DNA of 64,000 nt from Prorocentrum cordatum (taxonomy: Eukaryota; Sar; Dinophyceae; Prorocentrales; Prorocentraceae): NCBI GenBank assembly GCA_963575745.1, contig CAUYUJ010019104.1, positions 215,900 to 279,899 on the forward strand, given 5' to 3'. The notes under the pieces were generated by a model. That model ran no database searches. It saw only the letters and a program-made list of their open reading frames with translations, and was not told where the DNA came from. The position numbers and the translations under genes are program-made. Shown here piece by piece: positions 31,725-60,790 of the stretch; position 1 is the first letter of the stretch, and every line of letters starts with the position of its first letter.

Positions 31725-31745
31725 TCCGTAGCCGCTTTGGCCCAG
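31725..31745 (+). other. SL-like motif before a YR-type start, element A
   Basis: TCCGTAGCC-GCTTTGG-CCCAG, immediately followed by ATG (31746). It matches the spliced leader at 17 of 22 positions, counting the A of the ATG as position 22. It is the same arrangement as in B, C, D, E and H. Confidence 0.6.
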
Positions 31746-32690
31746 ATGCTTGATCTGATCGCAGAGAGCCGCCGGGCGCGGAAAGGGCGGCCCTTGCTCG
31801 CGCTGCCCTTGGGGCGCCCCTCGGGCGACCGCGGGCGCCCGTCGCCGCCCTTGTCGTTCTTCGCGCCCTTGCCGCCGGAGCTCGCGCTGGAGGGCCCCAC
31901 GCCTCGGACGTCCGGACCACCTTTGGCATATCTTTTGAGCGAACCCTTCTGCGTTCCGCCAGCCGGGCTCCACGAGTTTCCTCCAGAGGCTTTGCCGTCA
32001 GAGGAGCTCGCGGGCAAGTGGGAGGCGGCCGGCCGCGCCGCTGCCGACCGGGACAGGCACTTCGTGGGCAGCGCCGATGTCGACGACCTCCAAGCAGCCC
32101 ACCGACCTCAGTGGAGCCGCACCCCAGGGATCGACGTCGTCGCTGCAGGAGGCACCTGGGAGGATCGGATGCGCGCGTCTCGTGAGATGCGCCCCGCGCG
32201 GACGCTCGAGGATCGGGTACACTACGTTGGCTTCGCGACGTTCCTGGGCCACGTCATGACGTGGGGGCTCAAGATCTGCATCATGAAGGTTTGTCCTGTC
32301 TCCGATGTGCTGGGTTACGTGTTCCTGCTTACGCGGGTTGCCGAGGAGTTCGGGGGCGTGCACACCGCCTATTTCTACGATTGGCTGGTGCGGCGTGAGA
32401 TGGCGCGTTCCTTGGAGAGGGGCGAGCAGATTGCGCACTTTTTCCAGAGGTTGGACCGCGAGATCGTCCGGGACGCTCGGGACAAGGCCCAGACGGCGAT
32501 CGGCCGCGCGGGGAAGGCCGCAGGCAAAGGTCCAGCGCAGCCGGCGCAGGCAAAGGGCAGCTCTGGCAAGGGTAGTGGCAAGTGTGCTGGTGGGCCCAAG
32601 GGAGCGCGCCCTGCACCTGCGTCGCCAGTCCTGCGGCGCAGATCACGCAGCCGCGCCCAGGCAGACCGCAACAAAAAAGAGAGACAGTAG
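31746..32690 (+). CDS. gag-like ORF of element B fused to a YR-type start
   Basis: ATG at 31746 begins MLDLIAESRR, homologous to the YR starts MLRFLDESR (H) and MLSFVNESR (E). After a Pro-rich stretch the protein becomes gag: EELAGKWEAAGRAAADRDRH and FVGSADVDDLQ, then WGLKICIMK...RVAEEFGG...REMARSLERG. This is collinear with the gag of element H (ENLAVFEAAGRVARDRGRLY and so on). It has a Gly/Lys and Arg/Ser tail (RRRSRSRAQADR), as expected of an RNA-binding capsid-like protein. It ends at TAG 32688-32690. The homologous gag-end position is a TGA 48 nt downstream (32736-32738). The fusion looks like a junction between element A and element B. Confidence 0.75.
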   Translation: MLDLIAESRRARKGRPLLALPLGRPSGDRGRPSPPLSFFAPLPPELALEGPTPRTSGPPLAYLLSEPFCVPPAGLHEFPPEALPSEELAGKWEAAGRAAADRDRHFVGSADVDDLQAAHRPQWSRTPGIDVVAAGGTWEDRMRASREMRPARTLEDRVHYVGFATFLGHVMTWGLKICIMKVCPVSDVLGYVFLLTRVAEEFGGVHTAYFYDWLVRREMARSLERGEQIAHFFQRLDREIVRDARDKAQTAIGRAGKAAGKGPAQPAQAKGSSGKGSGKCAGGPKGARPAPASPVLRRRSRSRAQADRNKKERQ

Positions 32691-32738
32691 AGCAAAGGCC
32701 AGAGCTGGCAGCATGGCAAGAGCTGGTCGAGCCGGTGA

Positions 32739-34872
32739 AGCCAGGCGTCCGAAGATGCGTCCGCCAGTGATGCCGATAGTACCCCTACAAGTGCTTTAAA
32801 GGACCAGGAGTCCCTGGAGCATTCGCTCGGCGGGTTTGCTGCCTTGAGCGAATCCGTGGACTCCTTGCTAGCCAATCCTGTTTTGCTAGGCTCCATGGAC
32901 CCTTGGAGTCACCTGGAATGGGCTCTTTCTTTGCCTGCACACGAAGGGCTCCTGCCAGTGCCAACAGTAATAGCTGAGGCACTGAGGGGGGCGGAGTCCT
33001 TGTCAGATTCCGAGCTTCACGCGCACCGCGCGGCGAGGCTCCAGCACTGGGCCGCGCGAAAGCGCGAAACATATTCAGCCTGGAGATGTGCGATGTGCGT
33101 TTGCGTTTTTGCCCGAGCATTGTCAGCTTGTCCTCGGGCCTGAGAAGAATGTCATTCTTCTTGCGGAAATGATTGACGCAATTGGCTGGCCAGACTGCCG
33201 CCTGGTAGAAGATCTCAAACGAGGCTTTCCCTTGCTTGGCCAGTTGCCTCGGAGCGGCATTTTGCCGCCCGTCGCGTACTCTGCAGTGTCAGAACCTGCA
33301 GAATCTCTCGCCGAGCGTTGTTTGGAGAACAACGCCAACACTTTAGAGCGAGTGCGCCGACCGTCGGCCGCGCAGCCTGCAGTCTGGAACGAATTTGAGG
33401 CGAAATGCGTGCAGGAGGTAGCCGAAAAGAAGGCATGGTGGACAGAGCTGCGTCCCGCCGCCTCCGTGATCTCTGCCCGATTCCCTGCCCTGGAAGGGTG
33501 GAAGGAAGCAGGCGGCGAGTTCATCCCCAAGGTTCGCTTGATAGATGATTTCTCAGGGTCTCTCGTCAATTCAGCAACGGCAATTGGGGAACCCATGCGG
33601 GTCGACATTTTGGACACTCTGCTCGCTGTTGCACGGTCTGTCGCTGGCGATGCGCCGCGCGACTGCGCTGTGCGCTTCCGGAAGGAGGATTTTAAAAGTG
33701 CCTTCGAATCCCTGCCGCTGCGGGCGGAACACCTGCCTTTCGCTGTCATTTCCTGGCGCACTGCAGCCGAGCAGGCCAAAGGTCTGCAGCTGATTTGCTG
33801 CCCTTTTGGGTCGAGCGCTTTCTGTCCACAGCTGGCAAAGGCTTGGTTCGTTTTTCCAGGCGTTGCTTGCGCGAGATCTGTTTGTGGCATATCCCCGGTT
33901 CGTGGACGATCTGTTCTCTGCCGATAGGTGCCTGGACGCGGCAAGCGCGCTGACAGGACCAGTAGAGACAGCGCATTGCGCAGAGCAACTGCTGCGCTTG
34001 ACAGGCTGGGTGCTTGAGCCTTCGAAGCGCGCGAGAGGCGCCACGAGCACCACCGTCCTGGGAGTCGACGTTTCTGCGCGCTCAAGCGAAATCATCTTCC
34101 AGATTGGGCCAGCTAAACAGCAGAAGTGGCTTGAGACCATTCAGGAGGCTCTCCAGAGTGACGCCCTCCGTCCAGCCGAAGCGAAGCGGTTGGCCGGCCG
34201 CCTGAATTCGGTTGGCAGCGCTGTTTTCGGAAAGGGAGCCAGGGCGTATCTCGCAGCGCTTCGCTGGCAAGCGAATCGCCGCACTGCTGGTTTGACGGCG
34301 CGCGTCTGGACGGCGCTCCGCCGGTGGTCCGCGTTTTTAGCCGAGGCGCCGACAAGGCGGATTCAGCTTGCGCAGCGCGCCGTTGAGCGGTGCATTGCGT
34401 ATACAGATGCTGCGGGAGATGGAGGAATAGCATTCGCACTGGTGCACCCGAGTTTCCGATTGTGGAGCGCCGCCTCGGTGCCGCAGGAGGCTTGGCAGTG
34501 GGCGCGTCCACGGCGCACCCAGATTGTGCTGTGGGAGCTGCTTGCCGCGGCGTGCGCAGTCCGATGTTTAATCGAGCGTGGACTGGCTGACTGCGAAATA
34601 TTTTTTTCGTGGATTGCAATCCGGCGTTGCACGTGCTTGTGCGCGGAGCGAGCAGACAAACGGATCTCAATATTTTGGTCACTGATTTCTGGTTCCAGGT
34701 CGCCAGGGCCGGCATCTCTTTGCACGCGTTCCGTGTTCTAAGTAAGCTGAACCTCGCCGATGGGCCCACCAGGTGGGGAACCTGGGACGCAGCTGTGGCC
34801 GCATTTGGCGCCCAGAGCTTTGAGAGGATTGCCTGGTTATGGCCGGCAGCACTGCCTTGGGACGCGGAGTGA
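32739..34872 (+). pseudogene. pol (RT-RNase H) of YR element B
   Basis: Follows the gag-end TGA in frame. It reads ESVDSLLANPVLLGSMDPWS, then in later frames ILLAEMIDAIGWPDCRLVED, FRKEDFKSAFESLPLRAEHL (motif A), ICCPFGSSA (motif B), YPRFVDDLFSAD (catalytic pair), AAEAKRLAGRLN-like connection, CIAYTDAAGDGGIAF, WELLAAACAVRC and SKLNLADGPTRW (RNase H). Compared with element C, lesions are a 7-bp tandem duplication (GATGTGC twice, about 33087-33100), one extra T near 33821 and one missing base near 34605. It is otherwise a close relative of C. Confidence 0.88.
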
Positions 34873-35189
34873 CTGTACCCGACCGTGGAAAAAGAACTTT
34901 CGCTGTCAGGTGTGGCGTCGTTACATCGCGCGGCACAAACCCTCATCTCTGCGTGCCACTTTGACAGGTCTCTTGTCGGAACGCCGTTTCCTGTTTGTTT
35001 TGGCGCCCTGGGCGCTTCTTTCGGATCGATGAGGTTCGGCCTGGTTGGCCGAGGTTGTTTCCGCAGGGCCTCGGAGTCCGAAAATTGTTCTGTGTGCCCG
35101 TCAGCTGGTCCGTGGCCAATGTGCGCTCGCGAGGCTGTGGTCAGTGTTACGCCTGTTCGGTGTCATTCGTCGTCCAGTGCGCGCTTCCG

Positions 35190-35209
35190 TCCGTAGCCGA
35201 TTGGAGCAA
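35190..35209 (+). other. SL-like motif before the YR start, element B
   Basis: TCCGTAGCC-GATTGGAGCAA directly followed by ATG (35210). The TCCGTAGCC core is identical to the spliced leader; the rest is diverged. Confidence 0.5.
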
Positions 35210-36726
35210 ATGTTGCATTTCATTGGCCAGAGTAGGGCACGGCAGGACGAGCTGGCTCGAGATGATGGTCGTTTGGTCCGTCCCAGGCTGAGCGACGCGC
35301 GTGGCCACGTGGAACCGGCCGGCAGTTCCTGCGAAGAGCGGCGAGCATTTCAGGTCTCACAGTCGACGTGCGAAGAATTCAATCGGATCTGGCCGTCGAG
35401 GGAGCAGTAGATCATTCGGATTTCCTTGGCATTTCGGCGGCAGAGGAGCAGGACATCTGGTCTGCGCGTAGAGGGGTACCTTTGCCGTTCGCAGAGGCGC
35501 TGACGGAGCTGTGCGCGTCAGCAAGTGCTTCTGCAGAACCTGAGCGCGCAGCGCGCGGTGCTGTGGCCCCGATACTCCCCGAGGCCCCGATCCCCGAATC
35601 GCCTGTGCTTGCCCATGCGTCAGGGGCAAATTCTCGGGCAATGGCAGCGCGCGCGGCTCTCAAGCTCTGCGCTGTGGCCCGCGCGTCTGGGGAAATGCCA
35701 GGTCCTGCAACACTCGCAGATGCCATCTTGGTTTTGGCCAAAATTGACGGGGATGTATTTCCGCTGCCCTCTTCTTCGCCAAGGCAAGAGCTGACTCGCA
35801 GCCGCCGTGTTGTCGACTTGGAGGCCATGAATGAGCAGGCTGCGCGGTTCGAATTTTGCGGGTGGCGCGCCAGTGCGCGAGGCTACTCTTCTGCACTGCG
35901 GTTGTACGGCCAGGTGGCCTTGCACTCGGCATCTGCACCTTGGCCGCCGACGACGCCCGTGGTTGACGCATATATCAGCTTATTTCGGAGTGCAGGGACC
36001 TTGGCGCGATATTTGTCCCACCTCCGCACTGTGCTGCATTGGATGCGTTTCCCTTTGGGCGCCCTGGCAGATACGGCCCGGGTCGTCCGTGGCGCTGAGA
36101 AGGCAGGCCGGTCGTTCAGACGGCCTTGCGTTCGTGCCACCGCTGCTGAGACCCAAGCGCTGTCCACGTGGTGCTCGGCGCTCGGCCTGCCCGACGTTGA
36201 AGAGTCCTGGGTCGTGGCGCGTCAATTCTGTTTACGATATGGCGAGGTTTCCCAGATTGGATCGGCGACAGCGCCAGTCTGCCTCGCCGTCGCGGCTGGT
36301 ACGCGCAAGGAGGTCTCCATCACTTTCACCAACAGGAAATGCTACACCGAGCCCGTGCAAGTGGTTCGGAGGTGCATATGCGCCCTCCAGGGTAAAGCGG
36401 TTTGTGGAGTATGTGTGCTTGTTTCTCGCCACAGTTGTCATTTCGGAGCGCTGTTTCCTGGCCTGACATATTCGGAAAGCCTTGCCACGCTGAAGGTGGC
36501 GGCTCAGGCGTGCGGCATAGAAAACGCCATGTTCTGGGGAACGCATGCTTTTCGCCGGGGTTGGGCGACGGATTGTTTGCAGGCGAACGGCCCCACTGCC
36601 TTGTTTTATGCTGGTGGGTGGCGCGGGCTCACCGTGTTCGCGCACGCCTCAGCCAGGGCGCGGGAGAACGTGGCGGCAGCAGAGTTCTTAGTTGAACACT
36701 CAGATTCGTCGGACGCTGCTGGGTAA
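35210..36726 (+). pseudogene. Tyrosine recombinase of YR element B
   Basis: Starts MLHFIGQSRARQDELARDDG. A 16-nt deletion near 35328, judged against element C, breaks the frame. From 35368 onward it is open to TAA at 36726. YR motifs are VVARQFCLRYGEV (first catalytic Arg), NRKCY (candidate Lys), GTHAFRRGWATD (HxxR) and AGGWRGLTVF. The position of the nucleophilic Tyr, which is FGY in D, E and H, is FAH here (His codon 36643-36645). The enzyme would integrate a circular DNA intermediate, but this copy lacks the nucleophile unless another Tyr substitutes. Confidence 0.85.
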
Positions 36727-36807: not shown

Positions 36808-37446
36808 TGGCTGCCCTGGAGGCTTCCCAGGGCGGCCCCAGCCAGCTGCACGTGCGTGTGTTGCCCATTGCACGCGTGGGAACGCGTGAATGTACATGCG
36901 AGGAATAATGTTAGTCGCCCCTAAATCACGAGGCACGAGTGGTTTGGGGGGCAGTGAAATTTGAGGAGTGGGATTCTTGTCCACTCTTAGCCTTTTGGCC
37001 TCCTGGCCTCCTAGCTTCGTGCGTCTGGCTCATGGCCGGTAGCTTCCCGCGGAGGCTGCGGAGTTGGAGGGGGAGTTCTTGCTCGCGCCTGGCCCTTTCA
37101 GGGTGCGGTTTCCCTTTCTGCCCGTCTGTCCGCGTGCGTCCGTCCGTGTCCGTCTGTCGTTGGTCGTCGCGCGCGCCAGGGGCCTTGTGGAGCCTGCGTC
37201 AGCACGCAGACGCAGCAGGGCCTGCGGGGCCAGGGGTGCGCGTGCGCATCGCTTCTCGTGGGGCTGCCGCTGCCGCGGTGCAGGCTGCTCTCGGGTTGGG
37301 TTGCTTTCCCCGCCCACCCGCTCCCTCGCGTTCCGCTGGTTGGGTGCCCTGGAGGCTTCCCAGGGCGGCCCCAGCCAGCTGCACGCATGTGCGTTGCCCA
37401 TTGCACGCGTGGGAACGCGTGAATGTACATGCGGGAATAATTTTAT
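36808..37446 (+). repeat. Split direct repeats B1-A2-B2, element B
   Basis: B1 36808-36914 and B2 37341-37446 share GCCCTGGAGGCTTCCCAGGG through GAATGTACATGCG and AATAAT. Between them A2 (36915-37340) starts TCGCCCCTAAATCACGAGG and matches the A1/A2 of element C. No A1 is found upstream, so the copy is 5'-truncated or rearranged. Confidence 0.85.
36905..36964. promoter_or_regulatory. Junction palindrome (candidate YR crossover), element B
   Basis: At the B1-A2 boundary, CCCCTAAATC pairs with GGTTTGGGG across a loop. The outer arms ATAATGTT/GAAATTTG are only weakly matched here. Subfamilies E, F, G and H have better outer arms. Confidence 0.5.
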
Positions 37447-42042: not shown

Positions 42043-42669
42043 GCAGTTGGTTTTGCTCTTCTTTGTGCTATGCCATTTGATGGCGCACGCGTGCAGCAAA
42101 GTGTTGTTTTTCCGTAGCCTTCCTGGATCAGCTCATGCTTTTGCGCTCGTGCTGATTATTACTGTATTGCGCACGTGTGGCAAGATGCTGTCTTGGCTAA
42201 ACGCTACCAGACAGCCCGACAGAAGTGAGCGAGACGAAGGATTTCTACAGCAATGGCTCATTTCGCACAACTGCTCGAGGGATACATTCAATCGGATTCG
42301 CTTGGAAGTTGCCGAGGAGGCCCGCGTCCGAGGCAGCACGCCAAAGGATGCGTGTGGGCGGGCGGTTTCACTCGACCACGCCACAAAACACAAACTCCGA
42401 ACCCAATGCGGATGCAACAAGAGGCAGAGGACGACGCTTTACAAGCAAATGCACCACCACGTATACCTGCACCTGCTCCGCCAGCATCCCCTGAAGAGGA
42501 CGAAGAGGAAGAGAAGCCGCAACCACGGAACCCCCCCCAAAAAAAAAGGGTCCTGAGAAGCCCATCGCCGCAACAAGATCCGCCCGAACAGGCTCCAGCC
42601 CCCGATCTTGCTGCTTCTCCCCCGAGCCCCCAAGCCGAAACAGAAGCACGGGCGCCGCAGGTCAGACCA
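42043..42669. other. Unassigned; isolated SL-like motif
   Basis: 42111-42132 reads TCCGTAGCC-TTCCTGG-ATCAGC, two bases before ATGCTTTTGCGC (then stop). It resembles the spliced leader and the YR start context, but no YR protein follows. 42480-42660 has Glu/Pro-rich frames. No gene is assigned. Confidence 0.35.
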
Positions 42670-43539: not shown

Positions 43540-44928
43540 TAGGCAGCGCCCTGGCCTTCGCCCCCACTGGTCTCGGAAAACTCCGCAAGCCACTCGGCGG
43601 CTGCCAGCTCCCCGCGAGACTGGGCCGTGGCGTACCCAAATGCCGCCACGCCACGCCAGCCCCTGACCAGAACAACGCCGAGGGGCCACAAGCACGCAAC
43701 GCGTCGTTTGCGAAGCTTCTCCTGAAGGCGTGCGTGCCCCAATGCTGCACATCTAGTAGTTGCGGGGCCGCAGCCTTCAGAAAAGCCAGTGCTTCCGGGT
43801 ACGTGATGTGCGCGAAGGGAGCGCCAGCGGCCTCGGCTGCCTCGCGCAACGCGCACACTCCGCACGACAGCCGCGTTCCCCCAGCACACAGGCACTTCCG
43901 CACGACATCCACAGGCATTTTGTAGCACTTCCGCCTCCTGAAGGTAAGGATCGCACTTGCATCGCCGCCCTCGCCGTTGAAGCGAAAGGGGGCGAGCTCT
44001 GAGCCCAGCGACAATGTTTCAGAATACCTGAGGCAAAAATGGCGCGAGACCACCGAGGATCTGGCCAAATCAAAACGCCCTTCGTTGTTAGCCCATTCTG
44101 CCAGCAGTTTCGTTTGGGCTGCTGACGCCCACACCTTCGGACGCACATGCGATGCAAATGCCTTGTCTGCTCCCCGTACAATTCTCACCGTGTCAGCAAG
44201 TTCCCCAAGAGGGAAGCGCAGCAAAGCCACCACTGAACGAATATGAGACAAGTACCGTCCCAAAGAAGCGCTGCTGCGGAATAGGCTTGCAAATACCGAC
44301 AGGGATGGATGACCCGCTGGCCAGGGGGGCTCTCTCGCAAGCGCAGCAGCTTCACCCTAAACGGACTTTCCGGCAACCGGCTCATGTCGCGGATGGCTTG
44401 CGTCAGCACGGCCGGGGGCAACGGTTCTGACCGACCCCTGGCCTCCGCCACCAGCGCCAAAGCTGCCTGCCCCCGTTGGACGTGGCCCGCAGGCTCGGTC
44501 TCTGCACCTAAGGCTGGGTGATTTGGGACGACAGGAGCTGGCGGTGGCTCGGCACGGCGGCTGGCTGGCTGCGACGACGCAGGGCGGCCGTCGGAACGCG
44601 CAGACTCCATCTCGCACAGCTCTACCAGCCGTACCACAAATGGCGGCGAGCACGAGGACAGCGACGGCCAAACCCGCTGAGCCTCCTGACATGCCAGCCC
44701 GCAAAAATCCAATGCATCTGTGGCCCCAGCCCATGCGAGATCCGAGCAAAGAGCTGCGATATCACGCCCTGGAGGATGTGCGCTCGCCGCCTGTCTGACC
44801 AGGGTTAATAGCACATTTGGCAAGGCCAGTTCCTGCGACGCCTCACCTGAGCTCCCAGCTCCCACAGCAAGCTGCCGCCCCGGCTGGGCCGCAGCGCTCG
44901 CGCGACTCTCATCGAGAAAACGAAGCAT
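43540..44928 (-). pseudogene. Tyrosine recombinase of YR element H
   Basis: Starts MLRFLDESRASAAAQPGRQ from the ATG at 44928. The N-terminal part is open to about 44265, then comes a frame change. The YR core reads YLSHIRSVVALLRFPLGELA, SVVSRHFCLRYSETLSLG (first Arg), TFRRRKCYK, HWGTHAFRRSFANDAL (HxxR) and, after another shift near 43650, GWRGVAAFGYATAQSRG with the nucleophilic Tyr at 43634-43632. All catalytic residues are present but spread over three frames. Confidence 0.87.
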
Positions 44929-44930: not shown

Positions 44931-44951
44931 CGCTGAGCCAAACGCTACGGA
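44931..44951 (-). other. SL-like motif before the YR start, element H
   Basis: On the minus strand TCCGTAGC-GTTT-GGCTCAGCG, two bases before the YR ATG. Both ends of the spliced leader (TCCGTAGC and GGCTCA) are exact; the middle is two bases shorter. Confidence 0.65.
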
Positions 44952-45056: not shown

Positions 45057-47196
45057 CTAGCGCTGCCATGGGGCGTCCGGAGGATCTTCCCACGACACGC
45101 GCGAAAAACCTGCCTCGACCATCCGCTGCAAATCTGCTTCCTTGTGCTGCTGCCTCGTGGGCGCATCCGCGAGATTTAAATTGCTGGGCACATAGAACGC
45201 ATACAGAAGGGTGCCCGTCCTGGCGACGCGCAGCCATAAATCCCCGAGGAGATCATTCCAGTCTGGCTGTCGCGACGACCCGCGGAGCAAAGTGCCGAGA
45301 GCCGTCTGGCTATCTACAAACAAGACAACCTCAAGCTCGCCAAAGCTCTGGTTTTGAAGCCAGTGCAGCGCGCAAATCGCGGCCAACAGCTCCCAGGTGG
45401 CAACTTGTGTTTTTCTATAGCAAGCCCAGCGCCAGACAGCACTGGAAACTCGTGCCGAGGACCAGACGCGCGCGTTGGGCGCACAAACCACCCAGGCGAG
45501 GTCACCACTGCCAGTGGCGTCAGAGTAAACTATGCACTTGGTCCTGGCTGTGGGCTGCAAACAAAATACGCGCCGTTGCGGCACGCAGTCTAGAAAACGC
45601 AGCCACCACTGAAGCGCCCGCTCCAGGCGCCCGGTCCAACGCCCAGACTCCCCGGTAGAGTGGCGGAACAGGGGTGCCAAATGCACACGCGCTGCTCGGC
45701 CGAAAACCGCTGAGGTTCCCCAACTGAGTTTGCCGGCCAACTTCTTGGCTTCTGCTGGGGAAATCGCCTGCCGCGCAAGAATGTCCTGAATCTGGCGCTT
45801 CCAACGCGAGAGCTTGTCAGGGCCAACCGACAATCGCACAGCGCAGGCCTCGCGCTCGACCGCGCAGTCAACTCCAGGGATCGGAGCCGCTGCTGACGCC
45901 GAAACGCGCTTGGAAGCGTCGAGCTCCCACTCTAGCAATTCAGATACCACCTCTGCGGCAACTGCGCTGGCCCCAGCTGGCGTTGCCGTCCAGCCCAAAA
46001 AGGTCGTCCACGAACCGGAGGAAAACAACATGGAACTGCTTGGCCAAAATTGCCCGGGCGGCAGCGCCAAAGCGTTCCCAATTGCACACAGACGCGACAG
46101 CGCCGGAGGGACAAGCGAGAAGCTGCAGGCCCAGTCCGCGGGCCTCCGCCGAACCCCACGTCACCGCCGCAAATTGCAGGTGGGAGCTCGCGAGGGGAAG
46201 GGTCTTGAACGCACCCACGAAATCCTCCTTGCGAAGCGCGGCTCCGCCAGCGCCCGCGCGGACAACCTTGCGCGCCACGGCAGCGAAATGGTCCAGCGTG
46301 TCGTGCTGGATGGCTTCACCTACTGAAACAGCCGCATTCACACGGGACGCCGTGAAATCGTCGAAGCAGCGCACCTTCCGTGAATCCCCTCTCCAGCCCT
46401 CGTCGGCTGGAAACCTGGCTGTGAGCACGCATGTGTCACGCAACGGGCGCCACCTTGCGTGGCCATCGCTGGCCTCTTTGATGCATTTCAGCTCAAACGC
46501 ATCGCGAACGGACTGCTCCACAGCCCGAGGCCGCCTCGCACGGCGACGCGTGACAGAGTTCAAAACTGGCGCCTGCGCGCGCAAAGAAACCGCATTTTCA
46601 GCGGGAGCAGAGAAAGAGATGCATGGCAGAACCCCGCTGCGCGGAATTTCGCCGATCAGAGGGAAACCACTTTGCAGGTCGCGCACCAGCCGGTCGTCGG
46701 GCCAGCTGATCGCCTCGAGCATCTCCGACAGAACAAGCAAATTTTTCTTCGGACCAAGAACACTGCGGACGTGCGCAGGCAAACCCGCGAATTTGCCCGC
46801 CCACAGTGGGTCCAGCACACGCTTGCGCTGCCGCCAGTGCTCGAGGCTCGCAGCGCGGGACTCGGCCAACGCATGCCCGTCGAAGGCAAGCACCTGGCAC
46901 AGCGAGTCTGCCACAGCTGCAGGGATCTCGGGAAGCTCGTCACCGGACGGAAGACCCAGAGCCCAGTTCAAATGATTGAGCGGCGTGCAATCACGCACTG
47001 CAGGATCGTTCAGGAAGCTATGTACAGCCCTCCGCGCCGCAGCGACACGAGGACAATCGAGGCATGCAAACTGAAAAGGAAGCTCCGCCTCCCCCCGCGG
47101 GGCAGAACGGAGCGGAGACGCACCAACAGCACGGCCGGCGACAAAAGTGGCCGAAGCGTCGCTGGCAGCACTGCTGTTTCCGCTAACGGAAGCCGC
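45057..47196 (-). pseudogene. pol (RT-RNase H) of YR element H
   Basis: Starts directly after the gag TGA and is open to about 45980: FACLDCPRVAAARRAVHSFL, LNWALGLP, KKNLLVLSEMLEAISWPDDR, LRKEDFVGAFKTLPLASSHL (motif A), LACPSGAVASVCNWERFG (motif B), FLRFVDDLFGLD (catalytic pair). One frameshift follows. The rest is open to TAG at 45057: LAGKLSWGTSAVFG, CIVYSDATGSGDLAW, TWELLAAICAL, VLFVDSQTALG, VPSNLNLADAPT (RNase H). It is the least damaged pol in the window. Confidence 0.9.
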
Positions 47197-49794: not shown

Positions 49795-49795
49795 C

Positions 49796-49828: not shown

Positions 49829-49910
49829 GTCATCATCATCACCATCATCCTCACCATCATCATCATCATAATCACCATCCTCATCATCATCCACATCATC
49901 ATCATCATGC
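49795..49910. repeat. (CAT)n microsatellite
   Basis: CATCATCAT run with CACCAT interruptions. Confidence 0.95.
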
Positions 49911-51850
49911 GCCGCCTCCGTCTCAGCGCCCTCCCGCGGCTCCAGCGCCCGCCCAGTGCCCCTTCCGCCCCGACCACTTCATTTCGGCACCGCACCCCCC
50001 CCCGCTCCGCCCCCTCCCCCGCACCATCTCAGCGCCCCCCCGCGGCTCCAGCGCCCGCCCAGTGCCACCTCCGCTTCGACCACTTTATTTCGGCACCGCC
50101 CCCCCCTCCCGCTCCGCCCCCTCCCCCGCGCCGTCTCAGCGCCCCCCCGCGGCTCCAGCGCCCGCCCAGTGCCTCCTCCGCCCCGACCACTTTATTTCGG
50201 CACCGCACCCCCCTCCCCGCTCCGCCCCCTCCCCCGCGCCGTCTCAGCGCCCCCGCGCGGCTCCAGCGCCCGCCCAGTGCCCCCTCCGCCACGACCACTT
50301 TATTTCGGCACCCCCCCCCCGCTCCGCGCGCCGTCTCAGCGCCCGCGGCTCCAGCGCCCGCCCCCCCTCCGCCCCGACCACTTTATTTCGGCACCGCCCC
50401 CCCCCCCGCTCCGCCCCCTCCCCCGCGCCGTCTCAGCGCCCCCCCGCGGCTCCAGCGCCCGCCCAGTGCCCCCTCCGCCCGACCACTTTATTTCGGCACC
50501 GCACCCCCCCCCGCTCCGCCCCCCCCCCGCGCCGCCTCAGCGCCCCCCGCGGCTCCAGCGCCCGCCCAGTGCCCCCTCCGCTTCGACCACTTTATTTCGG
50601 CACCGCACCCCCCCCCCGCTCCGCCCCCTCCCGCGCCGTCTCAGCGCCCCCCCCCGGCTCCAGCGCCCGCCCAGTGCCTCCTCCGCCCCGACCGCTTTAT
50701 GTCGGCACCGCATCCCCGCGCCGTCGCCCCCTCCCCGCATCCCGCCCCCCCCCCGCTCCGCCCCCTCCCCCGCGCCGTCTCAGCGCCCCCCCCGCGGCTC
50801 CAGCGCCCGCCCAGTGCCCCCTCCGCCCCGACCACTTTATTTCGGCACCGCACCCCCCCCCCGCTCCGCCCCCTCCCCCGCGCCGTCTCAGCGCCCCCCC
50901 GCGGCTCCAGCGCCCGCCCAGTGCCCCCTCCGCCCCGACCACTTTATTTCGGCACCGCACCCCCCCCGCTCCGCCCCCTCCCCCGCGCCGTCTCAGCGCC
51001 CCCCCGCGGCTCCAGCGCCCGCCCAGTGCCCCTCCGCCCCGACCACTTTATTTCGGCACCGCACCCCCCCTCCCCGCTCCGCCCCCTCCCCCGCGCCGTC
51101 TCGGCTCCAGCGCCCCCCAGTGCCCCCTCCGCCCCGACCCTTCAGTCGGCTCCAGCCCACGCCGCCCAGCGCCGCCGGCGCCCACCACCCCTCCGCCCGA
51201 CCACTTTATTTCGGCACCGCACCCGCGCCGTCTCAGCGCCCCCCGCGGCTCCAGCGCCCGCCCAGCGCCCCCTCCGCGACCACTTTATTTCGGCACCGCA
51301 CCCCCCCCCGCTCCGCCCCCTCCCCCGCGCCGTCTCAGCGCCCCCCGCGGCTCCAGCGCCCGCCCAGTGCCTCCTCCGCCCCGACCACTTTATTTCGGCA
51401 CCGCACCCCCCCCCCGCTCCGCCCCCTCCCCCGCGCCGTCTCAGCGCCCCCGCGCGGCTCCAGCGCCCGCCCAGTGCCCCCTCCGCCACGACCACTTTAT
51501 TTCGGCACCGCACCCCCCTCCCCGCTCCGCCCCCTCCCCCGCGCCGTCTCAGCGCCCCCGCGCGGCTCCAGCGCCCGCCCAGTGCCCCCTCCGCCCCGAC
51601 CACTTTATTTCGGCACCGCACCCCCCCCCCGCTCCGCCCCTTCCCCCGCGCCGTCTCAGCGCCCACCTCCCCCGCGCCGTCTCAGCGCCCCCGCGCGGCT
51701 CCAGCGCCCGCCCAGTGCCCCCTCCGCCCCGACCATTTTATTTCGGTACCGCACCCCCCCTCCCCGCTCCGCCCCCTCCCCCGCGCCGTCTCAGCGCCCC
51801 CGCGCGGCTCCAGCGCCCGCCCAGCGCCCCCTCCGCCCCGACCATTTTAT
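49911..51850. repeat. 107-bp satellite, about 17 units
   Basis: Tandem units each containing CTTTATTTCGGCACCGCACC, CCGCTCCGCCCCCTCCCCCG, GCCGTCTCAGCGCCCCC and GCGGCTCCAGCGCCCGCCCAG. CTTTATTTCGG-type words (some variant) recur at about 49978, 50084, 50192, 50301 and so on, with period about 107 and a few short units. Long Pro/Ala/Ser frames up to 681 codons run across it in all phases and are rejected. Confidence 0.97.
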
Positions 51851-51894
51851 TCTCTTGCACAGCTGTGTTCTAGAGCTCGGACCTCTTTATTTTC

Positions 51895-52270
51895 GCCGCC
51901 CCTAAATCACGAGGCACGAGTGGTTTGGGGGGCAGTGAAATTTGAGGAGTAGGATTCTTGTCCACTCTTGGCCTTTTGGCCTCCTGGCTTCCTAGCTTCG
52001 TGCGTCTGGCTCATGGCCGGTAGCTTCCTATGGAGGCTGCGGAGTTGGAGGGGGAGTTCTTGCTCGCGCCTGGCCCGTTCAGGGTGCGGTTTCCCTGTCT
52101 GCCCGTCTGTCCGTGTCCGCCCGTCCGTGTCCGTCTGTCGTTGGTCGTCGCGCGCACCAGGGGCCTCGTGGACCTTGCGTCAGCGCGCGGACGCAGCAGG
52201 GCCTGCGGGGTCAGGGGGTGCGCGTGCGCATCGCTTCTCGTGGGGCTGCCGCTGCCGGGTGCAGGCTGCT
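51895..52270 (+). repeat. A1 terminal repeat of YR element C
   Basis: Starts GCCCCTAAATCACGAGGCAC and continues almost base for base with A2 of element C (56319-56689) and of element B (36915-37340). It joins pol at CTAGGCTCCAT (about 52273), deleting gag and the start of pol. Confidence 0.88.
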
Positions 52271-54250
52271 CTCTAGGCTCCATCGGCCCTTGGAGTCACC
52301 TGTAATGGGCTCTTTCTTTGCCTGCACACGAAGGGCTCCCGCCAGTGCCAGCAGTCATAGCTGAGGCACTGAGGGGGGCGGAATCCCTGTCAGATTCCGA
52401 GCTTCACGCGCACCGCGCGGCGAGGCTCCAGCACTGGGCCGCGCGAAAGCGCGGAACAGATTCAGCCTGGAGATGTGCGTTTGCGCTTTTGCCCGAGCAT
52501 TGCCAGCTTGTCCTCGCGCCTGAGAAGAATCTCATTCTTCTTGCGGAAATGATTGAGGCAATTGGCTGGCCAGACTGCCGCCTGGTGGAAGATCTCAAAC
52601 GAGGCTTTCCCTTGCTTGGCCAGTTGCCTCGGAGCGGCATTTTGCCGCCCGTCGCGTACCCTGCAGTGTCAGAAACTGCAGAATCTCTCGCCGAGCGTTG
52701 TTTGGAGAACAACGCCAACACTTTAAAGCGAGTGCGCCGACCGTCGGCCGCGCAGCCTGCAGTCTGGAACGCATGTGTGGCGAAATGCGTGCAAGAGGTA
52801 GCCGAAAAGAAGGCATGGTGGACAGAGCTGCGTCCCGCCGCCTCCGCGATCTCTGCCCGATTCCCTGCCCTGGAAGGGTGGAAGGAAGCAGGCGGCGAGT
52901 TCATCCCCAAGGTCCGCTTGATTGATGATTTCTCAGGGTCACTCGTCAATTCAGCAACGGCAATTGGGGAACCCATGCCGGTCGACACTTTGGACACTCT
53001 GCTCGCTGTTGCGCGGTCTGTCGCTGGCGATGCGCCGCGCGACTGCTGTGTGCTTCCGGAAGGAGGATTTTAAAGGTGCCTTCAAATCCCTGCCGCTGCG
53101 GGCGGAACACCTGCCTTTCGCCGTCATTTCCTGGCGCGCTGCAGACGAGCAGGCCAAAGGTCTGCAGTTGATTTGCTGCCCTTTTGGGTCGAGCGCTTCT
53201 GTCCACAGCTGGCATAGGCTTGGTTCGTTATTCCAGGCGTTGCTTGCGCGAGATCTGTTTGTGGCATATCCCCGGTTCGTGGACGATCTGTTCTCTGCCG
53301 ATAGGTGCCTGGACGCAGCAAGCGCGCTGACAGGGCCAGTAGGGACAGCGCATTGCGCAGAGCAACTGCTGGACTTGACAGGCTGGGTGCTTGAGCCTTC
53401 GAAGCGCGTGAGAGGCGCCGCGAGCACCACCATTTTGGGAGTGGGCGTTTCTGCGCGCTCAGGCGAAATCGTCTTCCAGATTGGGCCAGCTAAACAGCAG
53501 AAGTGGCTTGCGACCATTCAGGAGGCTCTCCAGAGTGACGCCCTCCGTCCAGCCGAAGCGAAGCGGTTGGCCGGCCGCCTGAATTGGGCTGGCAGCGCTG
53601 TTTTTGGAAAGGGAGCCAGGGCGTATCTCGCAGCGCTTCACTGGCAAGCGAATCGCCGCACTGCTCGTTTGACGGCGCGCGTCCGGACGGCGCTCCGCTG
53701 GTGGTCCGCGTTTCTGGCCGAGGCGCCGACAAGGCGAATTCAGCTTGCGCCGCGCGCCGTTGAGCGGTGCATTGTGTATACAGATGCTGCGGGAGATGGA
53801 GGAATAGCATTCGCACTGGTGCACCCGAGTTTCCGATTGTGGAGCGCCGCCTCGGTGCCGCAGGAGGCTTGGCAGTGGGCGCATCCACGGCGCACCCGGA
53901 TTGCGCTGCGGGAGCTGCTTGCCGCAGCGCGCGCAGTCCGATGTTTAATCGAGCGCGGACTGGCTAACTGCGAAATACTTCTTTTCGTGGATTGCAATCC
54001 GGCGTTGCACGTGCTTGTGCGCGGAGCGAGCAGACAAACGGATCTCAATGCTTTGGTCACTGGTTCCTGGTTCCAGGTCGCCAGGGCCGGCATCTCTTTG
54101 CACGCGTTCCGTGTTCCAAGTAAGCTGAACCTCGCCGATGGGCCCACCAGGTGGGACACCTGGGACGCAGCTGTGGCCGCATTTGGCGCCCGGAGCTTTG
54201 AGCGGATTGCCTGGTTATGGCCGGCAGCACTGCCTTGGGGCGCGGAGTGA
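52271..54250 (+). pseudogene. pol (RT-RNase H) of YR element C
   Basis: A close relative of the pol of element B. An early TAA (CTG-TAA where B has CTG-GAA, near 52303) and a 2-nt deletion near 53047 break the frame. Motifs are LIDDFSGSLVNSATAIGEPM, then RKEDFKGAFKSLPL (A), ICCPFGSSASVHSWHRLG (B), YPRFVDDLFSAD (C), LAGRLNWAGSAVFGKGARAY, CIVYTDAAGDGGIAF, ELLAAARAVRC, LLFVDCNPALH, PSKLNLADGPTRW. The second part (52922-54250) is one open frame. Confidence 0.88.
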
Positions 54251-54582: not shown

Positions 54583-54602
54583 TCCGTAGCCGATTGGAGC
54601 AT
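54583..54602 (+). other. SL-like motif before the YR start, element C
   Basis: TCCGTAGCC-GATTGGAGCAT directly followed by ATG (54603). Same as element B except the last base. Confidence 0.5.
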
Positions 54603-56130
54603 ATGTTGCATTGCATTGGCCAGAGTAGGGCGCGGCAGGACGAGCTGGCTCGAAATGATGGTCGTTTGGTCCGTCCCAGGCTGAGCGATGCGCGTGACCA
54701 CGTGGAACCGGCTGGCAGTTCCACGCTCGGCGTTTCGCTGCGAAGAGCAGCGAGCATTTCAGGTCCCACAGTCGACGTGCGGAGAATTGAGTCGGATCTG
54801 GCCGTCGAGGGAGCAGTAGATCATTCGGATTTCCTTGGCATTTCGGCGGCAGAGGCGCAGGACATCTGGTCTGCGCTCAGAGGCGTACCTTTGCCGTTCG
54901 CGGAGGCGCTGACGGAGCTGTGCGCGTCAGCATGTGCTTCTGCAGAACCTGAGGGCGCAGTGCGCGGCGCTGTGGCCCCGCCCGACGCCCCGATACTCCC
55001 CGAACCGCCTGTGCTTGCCCTTGCGTCAGGGACAAACTCTCGGGCAATGGCAGCGCGCGCGGCTCTCAAGCTTTGCGCTGTGGCCCGCGCGTCTGGGGAA
55101 ATGCCAGGTCCTGCAACACTCGCAGATGCCATCTTGGTTTTGGCCAAAATTGACGGGGATGTGTTTCCGCTGCCCTCTTCTTCGCCAAGGCAAGAGCTGA
55201 CTCGCAGCCGCCATGTTGTCGACTTGGAGGCCATGAGTGAGCAGGCTGCGTGGCTCGAATTTTGCGGGTGGCGCGCCAGTGCGCGAGGCTACTCTTCTGC
55301 AGTGCGGTTGTACGGCCAGGTGGCTTTGCAGTCGGCATCTGCACCTTGGCCGCCGACGACGCCCGTGGTTGACGCATATATCAGCTTATTTCGGAGTGCA
55401 GGGACCTTGGCGCGATATTTGTCCCACCTCCGCACTGTGCTGCATTGGATGCGTTTCCCTTTGGGCGCCCTGGCAGATGCGGCCCGGGTCGTCCGTGGCG
55501 CTGAGAAGGCAGGCCGGTCGTTCAGAAGGCCTCGCGTTCGTGCCACCGCTGCTGAGACCAAAGCGCTGTCCACGTGGTGCTTGGCGTTCGGCCTGCCCGA
55601 CGTTGGGGCGTCCTGGGTCGTGGCGCGTCATTTCTGTCTACGGTATGGCGAGGTTCTACAGATTGGATCGGTGACAGCGCCAGTCTCCCTCGCCGCGGCG
55701 GCTGGTACGCGCAAGGAGGTGTCCATCACTTTCACCAACAGGAAATGCTACACCGAGCCCGCGCAAGTGGTTCGGAGGTGCATATGCGCCCTCCAGGGTA
55801 AAGCGCTTTGTGGAGTATGTGCTTGTTTCTCGCCACGGCTGTCATCCCGGACCGCTGTTTCCTGGCCTGACATATTCGGAAAGCCGTGCCACGCTGAAGG
55901 TGGCGGCTCAGGCGTGCGGCATAGAAAACGCCATGTTCTGGGGAACGCATGCTTTTCGCCGAGGTTGGGCGACGGATTGTTTGCAGGCGAACGGCCCCAC
56001 TGCCCTGTTTTATTCTGGTGGGTGGCGCGGGCTCACCGCGTTCGCGCACGCCTCAGCCAGGGCGCGGGGGAACGTGGCGGCAGCAGAGTTCTTAGTTGAA
56101 CACTCAGATTCGCCGGACGCTGCTGAGTAA
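54603..56130 (+). pseudogene. Tyrosine recombinase of YR element C
   Basis: MLHCIGQSRARQDELARNDG, open to about 55820. There a 2-nt deletion relative to element B (GTATGTGCTT against GTATGTGTGCTT) shifts frame; the rest runs to TAA at 56130. Motifs are VVARHFCLRYGEVLQIG, FTNRKCYTEP, GTHAFRRGWATD, SGGWRGLTAF. The Tyr position is His (FAHASARARG, codon 56047-56049), as in element B. Confidence 0.87.
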
Positions 56131-56211: not shown

Positions 56212-56796
56212 TGGGTGCCCTGGAGGCTTCCCAGGGCGGCCCCAGCCAGCTGCACGTACGTGCGTTGCCCATTGCACGTGTGGGAACGCGTGAATGTACA
56301 TGCGAGGAATAATTTTAGTCGCCCCTACATCACGAGGCACGAGTGGTTTGGGGGGCAGTGAAATTTGATGAGTAGGATTATTGTCCACTCTTGGCCTTTT
56401 GGCCTCCTGGCTTCCTAGCTTCGTGCGTCTGGCTCATGGCCGGAAGCTTCCTATGGAGGCTGCGGAGTTGGAGGGGAAGTTCTTGCTCACGCCTGGCCCG
56501 TCTGTCGTTGGTCGTCGCGCGCACCAGGGGCCTTGTGGACCTTGCGTCAGCGCGCGGACGCAGCAGGGCCTGCGGGGTCAGGGGGTGCGCGTGCGCATCG
56601 CTTCTCGTGGGGCTGCCGCTGCCGCGGTGCAGGCTGCTCTCGGGTTGGCTTGCTTTCCCCGCCCACCCGCTCCCTCGCGTTCCGCTGGTTGGGTGCCCTG
56701 GAGGCTTCCCAGGGCGGCCCCAGCCAGCTGCACGTATGTGTGTTGCCCATTGCACGTGTGGGAACGCGTGAATGTACATGCGAGGAATAATTTTAG
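56212..56796 (+). repeat. Split direct repeats B1-A2-B2, element C
   Basis: B1 56212-56318 and B2 56690-56796 are both 107 bp (TGGGTGCCCTGGAGGCTTCC ... AGGAATAATTTTAG). A2 56319-56689 matches A1 at 51895. Together with A1 this gives the complete A1-genes-B1-A2-B2 plan of PAT/Ngaro-type YR elements. Confidence 0.92.
56309..56371. promoter_or_regulatory. Junction palindrome, element C
   Basis: CCCCTACATC and GGTTTGGGG form the inner arms around a 12-nt loop. The outer arms are AATAATTTTAG and TGAAATTTGAT, imperfect. Confidence 0.5.
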
Positions 56797-57183
56797 CATA
56801 CCCCCTAAACCAAAGGTTTCGATGGGGAGGAAAATCTAAAGCCCCGCCTGACGCGAAACGGTTGGTAGATTCATCGGTTGATGGCTTTAGACGTGTACGT
56901 AAACTCGTGGGCAGTCACGGCTTGGGCCCCCGACGGAGCGGCGGATTTCTTCCAAAGCCTGGTTGGCTCCAACTCGGAGCAGCGGTTGTCTTCGACAACT
57001 CCGGAGGCCGATCGGGGCACCGCCCGGCTCGGGGGCGGGGTAGCAAGTTCCCGGCACCGCGGCCGCCGCGGAGCAAGCGCCCTGCGGGGTGCACTCGCTC
57101 CACCGGGGGGTCTTCGCAGGCTCCCAGTGGTCCACAAGGTGGGCCAGGTGCTGTTCACAGCGCCCGTGGTGTTGTTTGTCGTC
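56797..57183 (+). repeat. D-family terminal unit, first part
   Basis: Starts CATACCCCCTAAACC-AAA-GGTTTCGATGGGGAGG immediately after the B2 of element C and matches 39096-38700 (reverse) and 63595-64000. At 57184 it switches to RNase H/YR coding sequence. The remainder of the unit resumes at 59172. Confidence 0.82.
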
Positions 57184-57446: not shown

Positions 57447-57468
57447 TCCGTAGCCGGTTGGGCACAAG
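57447..57468 (+). other. SL-like motif before the YR start, element D
   Basis: TCCGTAGCC-GGTTGG-GCACAAG, exactly 22 nt and identical to the spliced leader at 18 of 22 positions, 9 nt upstream of ATG 57478. Its TAG also ends the upstream frame. Confidence 0.65.
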
Positions 57469-57477: not shown

Positions 57478-59004
57478 ATGGCCTTCCAGTTTATCGATGC
57501 TTCCCGGCGGCGCCATCTGGAGGCCGCCCGGGGCGCGCAGGTGCCGCAGCAGACTCCTGTGCCAACGGAGCTGAAGGCATGGTTCCAGAGTGTGCTGGCC
57601 CGAACGCCAGCTTCGTGCCATCCGGCATCGCCTGACGCAGTCTTGCAGGCGCTGGCCGATTCTGGTGCTGTTCATGGCGGCGACCTCCAAGGCCTCTCAG
57701 CAGCAGAGTTGCGAGAGGTGTGGCCGCCTCTCAGAACGCTGTCCGATGACTTCCTGCGTTCCGTGTCGTGGCAGACGGGCGCGCGCGGCTCAAGCACCGT
57801 CGTGCCTAAGCTGAAAAGACACAAGCCAGAACGCTTTTGTGAGCAAGAACTACCTCCCGGGAGGCCGGCTGCCAGGGCGGCGGCCGACGAGTTTTCAGCA
57901 GCAGTGGAAGTTTTGGTGCAAGCCAGAGCTCAAAGATGTGCGCCTCCCGCTGATGTCCTGGCGCAATCAATTTCTGTCATATGCAGAGCGCCAGCTCCGG
58001 GACTGCATGACGGTGCCGCGGCCTCACCTCTGCCATCGGCGAGAGCGCGGTGGCTGGCGCAAATTCCGGCGGAGCGTCGCGATGATGTGCTCCGCGGCCG
58101 CTTGCTGCTCCAGGAAATGGAAAACTGGCGACAGAGTGGACAAGGCTACGCATCAGCTGTGCGATTGTGGGGCAAGCTGGCAGCGGCAACTGGCGTACCA
58201 GAGTGGCCGCCTGATCAGGTGGTGCTCGCAGCACTTGTATTTGCAGTCCCACGGGCGTCCACGCTCTCCCGGTACTGTTCCCATTTGCGGTCCATTCTCA
58301 GGCTTATACAGGCGCCTTTGGGGTCGCTGGCTGACACGAGTATGCTAGTCAAAGGCGCCCAGAAGAGCTGCACTTCTGCGCCGCGCTTCAAGGCCACTGC
58401 GTCTGCGAGGCAGACCCGCGAACTCGCGGGCTACGCCCGGGACGTGTTGCAAGACGCGGAGCTCGCAGACAGTTGGGTCGTGGCCAGACATTTCACATTG
58501 AGGTATAGCTGCGAAGTACTTAAACTTGGTGCCGACCCGTCCCACTCTGAAGTGCGGTGCCACGTCCGTGACAATGTGTCTGAGGTTACCGTCGTTTTGC
58601 ACAGAAGGAAAATGCAAGACAAATCTGTGCATGTGGCGCGGCAGTGCATTTGCAAGTCCGCATCGCCAGACTTGTGCGGGGTCTGCGTCTTGCGTCGACG
58701 TTGCGGCCAGGGAGCACTATTTCCAGTCCTCCAGTACGACAGGGCTTTAGCAGCATTGAAAACTGCAGCACTCGCACTTGGTTCCCCGAGAGGAGCAGAA
58801 TGGGGCACCCACTGCTTCCGCCGCGGTTGGGCCAATGACGCCCTGCGCCATGGGGGAGTGCCAGCCTTGTTTTATTCAGGCGGCTGGCGTGGCTTAGCTG
58901 CGTTCGGCTACGCCGCGGCGCAGACGAAGGGGGAAGTTCTGGCTGCTAAGTGGGCAGCAGAGTTTTCCGACTCGTCAGGCGATGGATCAGGCGTAGAGAG
59001 TTGA
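57478..59004 (+). CDS. Tyrosine recombinase of YR element D, intact
   Basis: The only unbroken YR gene here, 508 codons from ATG 57478 to TGA 59002-59004. The N-terminal half is variable (MAFQFIDASRRRHLEAARG). The SAM-like DNA-binding region includes YASAVRLWGKLAAATGVPEW and YCSHLRSILRLIQAPLGSLA. Catalytic residues: Arg in VVARHFTLRYSCEV, a Lys in the HRRKMQDK hairpin, His445 and Arg448 in THCFRRGWANDAL, Trp470 in SGGWRGLAAF, and Tyr478 in FGYAAAQTKG. There is one extra codon (Cys) after LRYS relative to the other copies. It would integrate the circular double-stranded DNA intermediate. Its own gag and RT are missing, so it could only act in trans. Confidence 0.92.
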   Translation: MAFQFIDASRRRHLEAARGAQVPQQTPVPTELKAWFQSVLARTPASCHPASPDAVLQALADSGAVHGGDLQGLSAAELREVWPPLRTLSDDFLRSVSWQTGARGSSTVVPKLKRHKPERFCEQELPPGRPAARAAADEFSAAVEVLVQARAQRCAPPADVLAQSISVICRAPAPGLHDGAAASPLPSARARWLAQIPAERRDDVLRGRLLLQEMENWRQSGQGYASAVRLWGKLAAATGVPEWPPDQVVLAALVFAVPRASTLSRYCSHLRSILRLIQAPLGSLADTSMLVKGAQKSCTSAPRFKATASARQTRELAGYARDVLQDAELADSWVVARHFTLRYSCEVLKLGADPSHSEVRCHVRDNVSEVTVVLHRRKMQDKSVHVARQCICKSASPDLCGVCVLRRRCGQGALFPVLQYDRALAALKTAALALGSPRGAEWGTHCFRRGWANDALRHGGVPALFYSGGWRGLAAFGYAAAQTKGEVLAAKWAAEFSDSSGDGSGVES

Positions 59005-59290
59005 GGAATACAACGGCAACATGCTATCGGGCTGGCGCTATTCCGCGCGAGCCCTGCTTATCCCAAGTCCAGGAGGTCCGGGATTTACAAGCGGAGCGAT
59101 GCTCCAGAACTCACGCGGGGATCCGGGCCCGAGTCGCCTACATTGGGAGTGTTATGGACAGGGCGAGTCGAGCCCTCACCATTGGGGCGCTTCTCTCGGG
59201 GCTCTTGCTCGCCTGTCGCGCCGGCAGCGCCCAGATTCCTGGCCCACTTCAGGCGCGCCCACTCCACCAGAAGGCGGGCAAGTAGATTTT
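59005..59290 (+). repeat. Spacer and second part of the D unit
   Basis: 59005-59171 is unassigned. 59172-59290 (GGGGCGCTTCTCTCGGGGCT ... GGCGGGCAAGTAGATTTTC) matches the far end of the D unit at 38640-38538. It joins RT coding sequence of element E exactly at GATTTTC. Confidence 0.65.
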
Positions 59291-60790
59291 CGTGCAAGGT
59301 TGGAAGACCGTAGGCTGGGAAACGTTCCCCAAAGTTAGATGCATCGATGATTTTTCTGCGTCGCGTATCAATGAAGGCACGCAAGTATCCGAGAATATGC
59401 TTCCCGACACGCTAGACTCACTTGTAGCGCTGGTGTTGAAGATCACAAAATCAAGAACATGCGCATTCGTTGGCGCAAAGATGATTTTGTGCAAGCCTTC
59501 ACGACACTACCAATATGCAGCTCTCACCTTCCATTGGCAGTTGTCGTGTGGCAGGAGGCGTTGGCTAAAGACCAGTGTCTCCAGCTCCTGGCAATGCCCT
59601 TTGGCTCTTCCGCCTCCGTGTCCGCCTGGGAGCGGTTCGGTTTGGCAATTCAGGGCGTGCTTGCGCAGATTTTCCTAGTGCTGTACCTTCGCTTCGTCGA
59701 CGATTTGTTTTCGGGCGACGCGATGGTAGAGCAAATAGATGTTGGCGGAGACCCTCTGACAGGCCCTGCTGGCACGGCCAAGCTGGCCAGGTACGTAATT
59801 TCAGATCTTCTCGGCTGGGATTTGGATGCCGCCAAGGCTGTCACAGAACAGCCATCGGCCACCATTCTCGGCGTCGGCGTTCGTTTTGATGACGCCCGGC
59901 AAGAGATAGTTTTGGACGTGGGTCCGGAGAAGCTCGAGTTGTGGAGCTCCCATATCGTCAGGGCCCTCAAAGCGGGCGCGTTGCCGCCGGCAGAAGCGCA
60001 GAAGCTGGCCTTGCGTTTGAGTTGGGGTGCCAGCTCAGTTTTTGGCAAGGGGGCGCGTGCTCCGCTGGCAGCTTTGTTCTTTCATGGCGCAGGCCGCACC
60101 AGCCGTCTCACTGCGAGGACGAGGCTCGCGCTCACATGGTGGCATAAGTTTTTGCAATCGCCACCCTCGCGGCGTGCACCGCTGCAACTCCGCGAGCGCC
60201 AGCGGTGCATTTTGTACAGCGACGCAACCGGCACTGGCATGATGGCGCGGGTGCTGCACGCTCCATTCGCCAAAGTCTGGGCCGCCACTAGTGTGCCCGA
60301 CAGCGCTCGCCAATGGGCACACTGGCGAAAGAACCAGATCGGCACCTGGGAGCTGATGGCAGCGATCTGCGCATTGAAATGGATTTTAAGCATTGGCCAA
60401 GCAGATCTCGAGATCATCTGCTTCGTCGATAACAAAAGCGCATTGGGTGCGCTTGTGCGAGGTTGCTCGCGGAAGTCCGATTGGAATTGTCTGATTGGCA
60501 ATCTGTGGCTTCTCGTCGCCGACAAGGCGCATTTCCTGCATCTTTGGCATGTGCCTTCGCATTTGAATCTCGCAGATGCCCCCACGAGGCCGTCTGAGAA
60601 GGCAGAGCAAATTGCCGAGCTGCAGGCGCGAAATTTTCAGCGCGTTGAGTGGCTGTTTCCGCCGGAGCACCCTGGGGCGGCTGAAGAAAAAAGTGAAACA
60701 ATAACATGTGCACAGGTTCTGATTGGAGGAGGGATACCATGCGCCGGTCTTGCCTTCTCCGTAGTATCGGCTCAATGCTTAGTTTTGTAA
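59291..60790 (+). pseudogene. pol (RT-RNase H) of YR element E, 5' truncated
   Basis: Begins inside RT: GWKTVGWETFPKVRCIDDFS ASRINEG. A frame change near 59465 follows, then one open frame to TAA 60790: WRKDDFVQAFTTLPICSSHL (motif A), LLAMPFGSSASVSAWERFG (B), YLRFVDDLFSGD (C), LALRLSWGASSVFGKGA, CILYSDATGTGMMARV, TWELMAAICALKW, ICFVDNKSALGALVRG, VPSHLNLADAPTRPSEK. gag and the N-terminus of pol are missing. The 3' end overlaps the YR gene by 16 nt. Confidence 0.88.
60758..60774 (+). other. SL-like motif before the YR start, element E
   Basis: TCCGTAG-TATC-GGCTCA followed directly by ATG (60775). Both ends of the spliced leader are exact; the middle is shorter. Confidence 0.6.

Follow-up and report, generated by a model that had tools for sequence, protein, structure and literature searches.

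Relics of the dinoflagellate spliced leader (SL), known as DinoRL, have been described from dinoflagellate retrogenes (Slamovits and Keeling 2008, via PMC3229502; PMC12014239), and when such a retrogene is spliced again, the old leader is cut after its nucleotide 7 and the incoming one attached at that point (PMC3229502, PMC12014239). The other described systems of interest are retrotransposons with a tyrosine recombinase (YR). The elements considered below share gag, pol and YR genes, A1-B1-A2-B2 repeats and the predicted YR fold with Ngaro- and PAT-like members of the DIRS order. In trypanosomatids, a host gene can obtain its acceptor site from SIRE. The VIPER/SIRE system, as described in PMC6681497, consists of a YR retrotransposon with split direct repeats in hosts that use polycistronic transcription and SL trans-splicing, and SymbioDIRS-Dnmt3 of Symbiodinium belongs among the Ngaro-/PAT-like comparison systems (PMC5890265).

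Here we analyze a 64,000-nt stretch of Prorocentrum cordatum DNA (the window), in which leader-like motifs stand directly before YR genes. The observation in the window is confirmed, and the motif occurs more widely than first described. The motif, a relic of the 22-nt SL, appears to be a retained part of gag-pol-YR retrotransposons, and sits at the 3' end of the spacer between pol and YR.

Motifs and elements in the window

The initial annotation placed six motifs beginning with TCCGTAG in the window, A to E on the plus strand and H on the minus strand, and all six are present. Motif A (31725..31745) abuts the ATG at 31746, and motifs B (35190..35209) and C (54583..54602), both of subfamily C1, abut those at 35210 and 54603. 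Motif D (57447..57468) matches the leader at 18 of 22 nt and is followed 9 nt on by the ATG at 57478; motif E (60758..60774) is shortened and abuts the ATG at 60775; on the minus strand, motif H (44933..44951) has its ATG 4 nt on, at 44928. Every motif ends 0-9 nt before a YR-type ATG that opens a similar N-terminal peptide, and the count of five subfamilies is correct, with B and C forming one. The genes behind these starts are preserved to different degrees, with frameshifts or stops in B, E, H and the C-terminal part of C: element A has the YR N-terminus only, the frames of B (35210..36726, plus strand) and E (60775..62286, plus strand) are broken, H retains an N-terminal part (44185..44928, minus strand) and is broken thereafter, C (54603..56099, plus strand) is frame-shifted in its C-terminal part, and D has an intact open reading frame (ORF) of 508 aa (57478..59004, plus strand) with the catalytic residues R, K, HxxR, W and Y.

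Besides gag, pol and YR genes, the elements have split direct repeats, and a long pol ORF lies between gag and YR. Searches of Pfam and the PDB with the YR sequences returned no match; the identification came from a fold search, in which a structural model of the YR matches Cre and lambda integrase, so that a predicted tyrosine recombinase fold is found together with the catalytic residues. For pol, a single piece matched Pfam RVT_1, with an E-value of 0.063, too weak to pass the cut-off, and the sequence contains what we take to be reverse transcriptase and RNase H motifs. Related named proteins of P. cordatum exist, including a 45% identical one called 'Tyr recombinase domain-containing' (P0023); another related entry (P0040) also bears the name Polarella glacialis. 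One scan of viral contigs gave no relatives.

The full order A1-ORFs-B1-A2-B2 can be read in element C, with A1 at 51889..52273, B1 at 56212..56318, A2 at 56312..56641 and B2 at 56690..56796, all on the plus strand. The set is partial in B (B1 at 36808..36913 and B2 at 37341..37445, plus strand), D and D3, and no split direct repeats were found in the D2 stretches examined. In a D copy outside the window (L012), B1 (3207-3314) and B2 (3766-3873) show 100% identity, as expected if the insertion was recent. A GC-rich tandem array of ~107-nt units (49885-51836) lies left of element C. At the right end of element C, the last base of B2 (56796) is followed at 56797 by the exact start of a repeat that also occurs in D-type pol sequence, marking a nested or abutting insertion. 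An ORF at 31512-32690 reads in frame from the YR N-terminus of element A into the middle part of gag of element B, and is the junction of two truncated elements. In two further copies, gag and pol are in the same frame with a single stop between them (TGA in D2 copy L060, 3992-3994; TAA in D3 copy L061, 4339-4341), so that stop read-through is possible in these two copies.

To place the motifs against their surroundings, the SL score was calculated in the 60 nt upstream of each window ATG on either strand that has that much upstream sequence (1745 ATGs). A score of at least 12 occurs upstream of nine, five of them behind motifs A, D and H. For motifs B and C the value is 10; motif E scores 9, a value shared among 15 window ATGs. 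The four other ATGs scoring at least 12 are at 21707, 39811, 39792 and 42135 and are not behind YR motifs. Directly before the first of these (21678-21706) is a near-canonical leader relic and then a second TCCGTAG, preceded by a long (TCC)n tract; it looks like a host-type retrogene relic. Upstream of the last, positions 42112-42134 read TCCGTAGCCTTCCTGGATCAG, perhaps another leader relic, with no YR after it. A minus-strand tandem array of ~90-nt units (960-2556) gives repeated weak matches in the leader scan. A 19-nt piece of the leader, allowing up to two mismatches, matches the 4.13 Gb assembly at 18,440 + 18,487 (36,927) places, compared with 14 + 11 for the reversed pattern, which marks the host as a dinoflagellate.

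Occurrence and leader ancestry of the motif

Further copies were collected by whole-genome protein searches with the D, C, E and H YRs, and the best 85 of 4221, 104 of 5348, 150 of 2326 and 150 of 8653 candidates, respectively, were scored; because the best candidates alone were scored, more distant subfamilies lie outside the sample. Subfamily names are working labels, assigned without a tree. Among the matches listed, SL-like sequence precedes the YR start in 22 working subfamilies, and 86 of the 87 copies with a located YR start (including 26 D, 10 D2 and 10 D3) score at least 8 in the 60 nt before the ATG. Outside this tally are L098 (start not found), L090, L091 and L096 (start pattern missed) and the D matches that lack an N-terminus; by eye, the relic is present in L091 and L096, and L090 has a deletion.

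Other sets agree. A 200-nt scan of 20 further loci gave a score of at least 8 in 17, with L113 scoring 7 and the start not located in L115 and L116. For matches to the H YR N-terminus, 20 starts were picked by hand from the listing; the motif is present in all, at 11 or more in 19 and at 7 in L141. The six C6-type copies all score 8-9. Four of the five E-type copies (L154 to L157) score 9-10, and the fifth (L158) scores 7 and has TCCGGAG in place of TCCGTAG. The pattern GTAG, 9-16 nt and a C-type YR start occurs at 96 places in the genome, one apparently spurious, versus none for the reversed control. The most leader-like of the copies examined (L148 and L149) are near-canonical, at 19 of 22 nt, and two patterns for C-type and similar starts found no intact canonical leader at a YR start.

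Leader-like peptides also occur in protein entries. In three ENA-sourced YR proteins with an upstream start, the residues leading into the usual start are SVAIVAQM, SVVGLAQM or TVAVFAQM and resemble SVAILAQ, which is what the leader itself encodes; these entries may come from the same species. The extension of the E-type P0050 is RSIGSM, and the extended proteins P0036 and P0037 contain no leader-like peptide. At the gag start, readable in D2 copy L060 only, the best nearby SL match scores 11 and lies 90 nt upstream of the ATG, and elsewhere in that stretch a further match reaches 12.

The similarity to the leader is beyond chance. The local SL scores of 22 subfamily representatives sum to 264, compared with 127.8 +/- 5.3 for shuffled sequences that preserve dinucleotides approximately (maximum 147 of 300 shuffles) and with a maximum of 181 for 1000 permuted leaders; a run with 11 representatives gave 133 versus 63.9 +/- 4.0. 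Taken individually, C6, C6b and D2 are within the shuffle range (21, 18 and 14 of 300). The result does not depend on TCCGTAG: across 13 subfamilies the 16-nt tail after TAG sums to 93, whereas shuffles give 47.6 +/- 3.3 and all 2000 permuted tails fall short of the observed value. Positions -7 to -5 are 0.83 identical between subfamilies, compared with 0.25 for -10 to -8 (positions -4 to -1 were left uncounted, being largely fixed by the anchoring), and the first YR codons are 0.40 identical across 13 subfamilies. Thus, the edge of conservation coincides with SL nucleotide 1. Many subfamilies depart from the leader in the same way, with 8 of 13 having a G three bases after TAG. With the tail alone above permuted tails and the block beginning at SL nucleotide 1, SL ancestry of the motif is well supported by sequence comparison.

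The motif lies outside the YR codons, and in most subfamilies with readable pol it lies outside the pol codons as well. From TAG to the YR ATG there are 10-44 nt, with all three reading frames represented. The distance between the pol stop and the last base of TAG is 99-382 nt in D, D2, D3, C3, C4, C5, A and H copies: 113 in D (L059), 382 in D2 (L060), 100 in D3 (L061), 99-101 in C3 (L072, L074), 339 in C4 (L082), 221-222 in C5, 235 in A and 112 in H. In the window, the pol C-terminal ORF of element A (30912..31496, plus strand) stops 249 nt upstream of the ATG, and that of element H (45057..46070, minus strand) 128 nt upstream of the YR ATG. Pol was not recognized in the C1, C2b and C3b stretches examined.

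Pol or YR codons, or chance, might still be thought to produce the motif, since the pol frame of window element D ends at its TAG, that of window element E overruns the YR start, and in the C2a copy L067 (G000:C13248:294222) pol and YR form one open frame of 1264 aa. The pol frame also extends to 64 nt before the ATG in C4 copy L085 and continues toward the YR start in C3 copy L078. Window element D has lost its own pol stop, however, and so its pol ends at the motif's TAG by chance; element E has lost its stop too. Pol ends 106 nt before the motif in D copy L059 and upstream of it in E copies L154 and L155, and the shuffles never came near the summed score. Because all three frames occur relative to YR and pol usually ends upstream, codons do not explain the TCCGTAG block, which is conserved in the larger alignment. 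We regard this explanation as extremely improbable and reject it as far as sequence allows.

Possible acceptor use, re-entry and other readings

We consider it reasonably probable that the relic is kept as an internal trans-splice acceptor that releases a separate YR mRNA. The conserved TCCGTAG would supply the AG acceptor for a new leader from the host, at the point known from re-spliced dinoflagellate retrogenes, and use of this site would free a monocistronic YR mRNA with a short leader from the gag-pol-YR transcript. GTAG is retained in 82 of the 87 copies, the conserved AG expected of a trans-splice acceptor; the AG is lost in single copies (L025, L033 and L078 in this set, L140 and L141 in the H-type set). 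Other features also tell against this use. The pyrimidine tract is weak, with a modest excess ahead of the AG in 9 of 13 subfamilies (p = 0.013). Extra ATGs between TAG and the YR start, absent from the 87-copy set, occur in H2 (two in L137-L139 and one in L141) and in E2 (one each in L156 and L157).

The AG is kept while the TTT(G) box is not, and this bears on the possibility that the leader's TTT(G) box acts as an internal promoter for YR, as hypothesized for retrogenes (PMC6050394 and PMC12014239, in the portions consulted). By eye, TTTG/TTTT is absent in C1, C2b, C4, D, D2, D3 and E, and we find this promoter very unlikely. Likeness to the SL also continues downstream of the AG, where an acceptor need not resemble it. 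This conservation beyond acceptor needs, near the start codon, would suit a different RNA or DNA element that resembles the SL, such as a re-initiation site for YR translation or a strand-transfer site in reverse transcription; the sharp edge at SL nucleotide 1, the similarity across the whole leader and the variable TAG-ATG distance (10 to 44 nt) make such an element unlikely.

One subfamily has a tandem relic. In C5 copies (L089, L091-L095, L097), TTCCGTAGCGTCTGGCTCGAAG is followed by CCGGTTTGGCTTAGC, joined exactly at nucleotide 7; L095 differs by one base in TTCCGTAGCGTCTGGCTCGAAG, and L094 has CTCAGC for CCGGTTTGGCTTAGC. Pol is still upstream where it was read (L089, L094). Against shuffles, the second piece stands out significantly in L094 (8 of 5000) and less so in L089 (231 of 5000). 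The 7-nt truncation would be the mark of trans-splicing after TCCGTAG plus reverse transcription. Tandem relics were also suspected in H2, H3 and H5 and were unsupported by the shuffle test.

The relic would have originated through re-entry: a YR RNA that carried the SL would have been copied into cDNA and this copy would have returned to an element. Such re-entry would have renewed the relic at least once, in C5. Re-entry alone, with no function for the motif, is the main rival: YR cDNA would re-enter occasionally, and a passive relic would decay between re-entries. Similarity that is weak in some copies (score 8) and near-canonical in others (L148 and L149, at 19 of 22 nt) fits this history, and so does the C5 tandem. 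Each re-entry should, however, leave a 15-nt truncated older relic, and C5 alone is clear; H2, H3 and H5, the other tested subfamilies with a long TAG-ATG distance, show none. In addition, the G that 8 of 13 subfamilies share three bases after TAG suggests descent rather than renewed acquisition, and TCC and AG persist while the bases outside are random. We judge the passive relic improbable, yet the most serious of the alternatives to a retained acceptor.

Processed YR copies were looked for directly. A generic tandem-relic pattern matches 1631 + 1614 places in the genome, dominated by relics of other genes, and none of the six zero-mismatch places listed has a YR start. The leader's last 7 nt joined to C1-, C2b- or C3-type YR starts occur at 0 and 0 places, and a wider pattern at two, both in another gene; these patterns gave little or no coverage of D-, E- and H-type starts. 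Processed YR copies were thus not seen in these searches, though host SL relics are abundant, and this counts against acceptor use.

Two interpretations had been offered with the first description, and they are partly supported. The proposal that the motif aids expression of YR from its own mRNA accounts best for the observations, on the basis of anatomy, conservation and one tandem relic. Capture of the YR gene from a trans-spliced transcript calls for revision: given that the elements follow the gag-pol-YR layout usual for YR retrotransposons, capture of a foreign gene is less likely than re-entry of a YR mRNA that the element itself produced and that carried the SL. Acceptor use, the YR mRNA itself and the re-entry route are what we infer from these features.

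Comparison with known systems

The motif shares with DinoRL the 22-nt leader, the 7-nt truncation point in the tandem copy and the site just upstream of a start codon. The present relic differs in being inside a mobile element, between two genes, and in being kept across diverged subfamilies, whereas host relics are described as decaying (PMC3229502, in the portions consulted). For VIPER/SIRE, the consulted portions of PMC6681497 describe no leader relic before YR, and in the paper on SymbioDIRS-Dnmt3 (PMC5890265) the words 'spliced' and 'leader' are absent from the main text. No earlier report of an SL relic in YR retrotransposons was found in the literature outside subscription papers and most preprints. 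Each of the two, leader relic and YR retrotransposon, is familiar by itself; what is new is their union as a conserved intercistronic part.

The comparison touches two open questions: how YR is expressed separately in YR retrotransposons, and what roles dinoflagellate SL trans-splicing has beyond capping. If the acceptor reading is true, an SL relic at one position in 22 working subfamilies offers a direct handle with exact predicted 5' ends. Counts of SL relics as marks of retrogenes will take in genes of mobile elements. More broadly, we give somewhat less than an even chance to the idea that a polycistronic element incorporated the host SL, that the relic became the acceptor of its last gene and was renewed by the element's own SL-bearing YR cDNA, and that the end of a processed mRNA was in this way inherited as a regulatory site. 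A mark of mRNA processing would then have passed into a selfish element and been kept there, a feedback between retroposition and gene expression.
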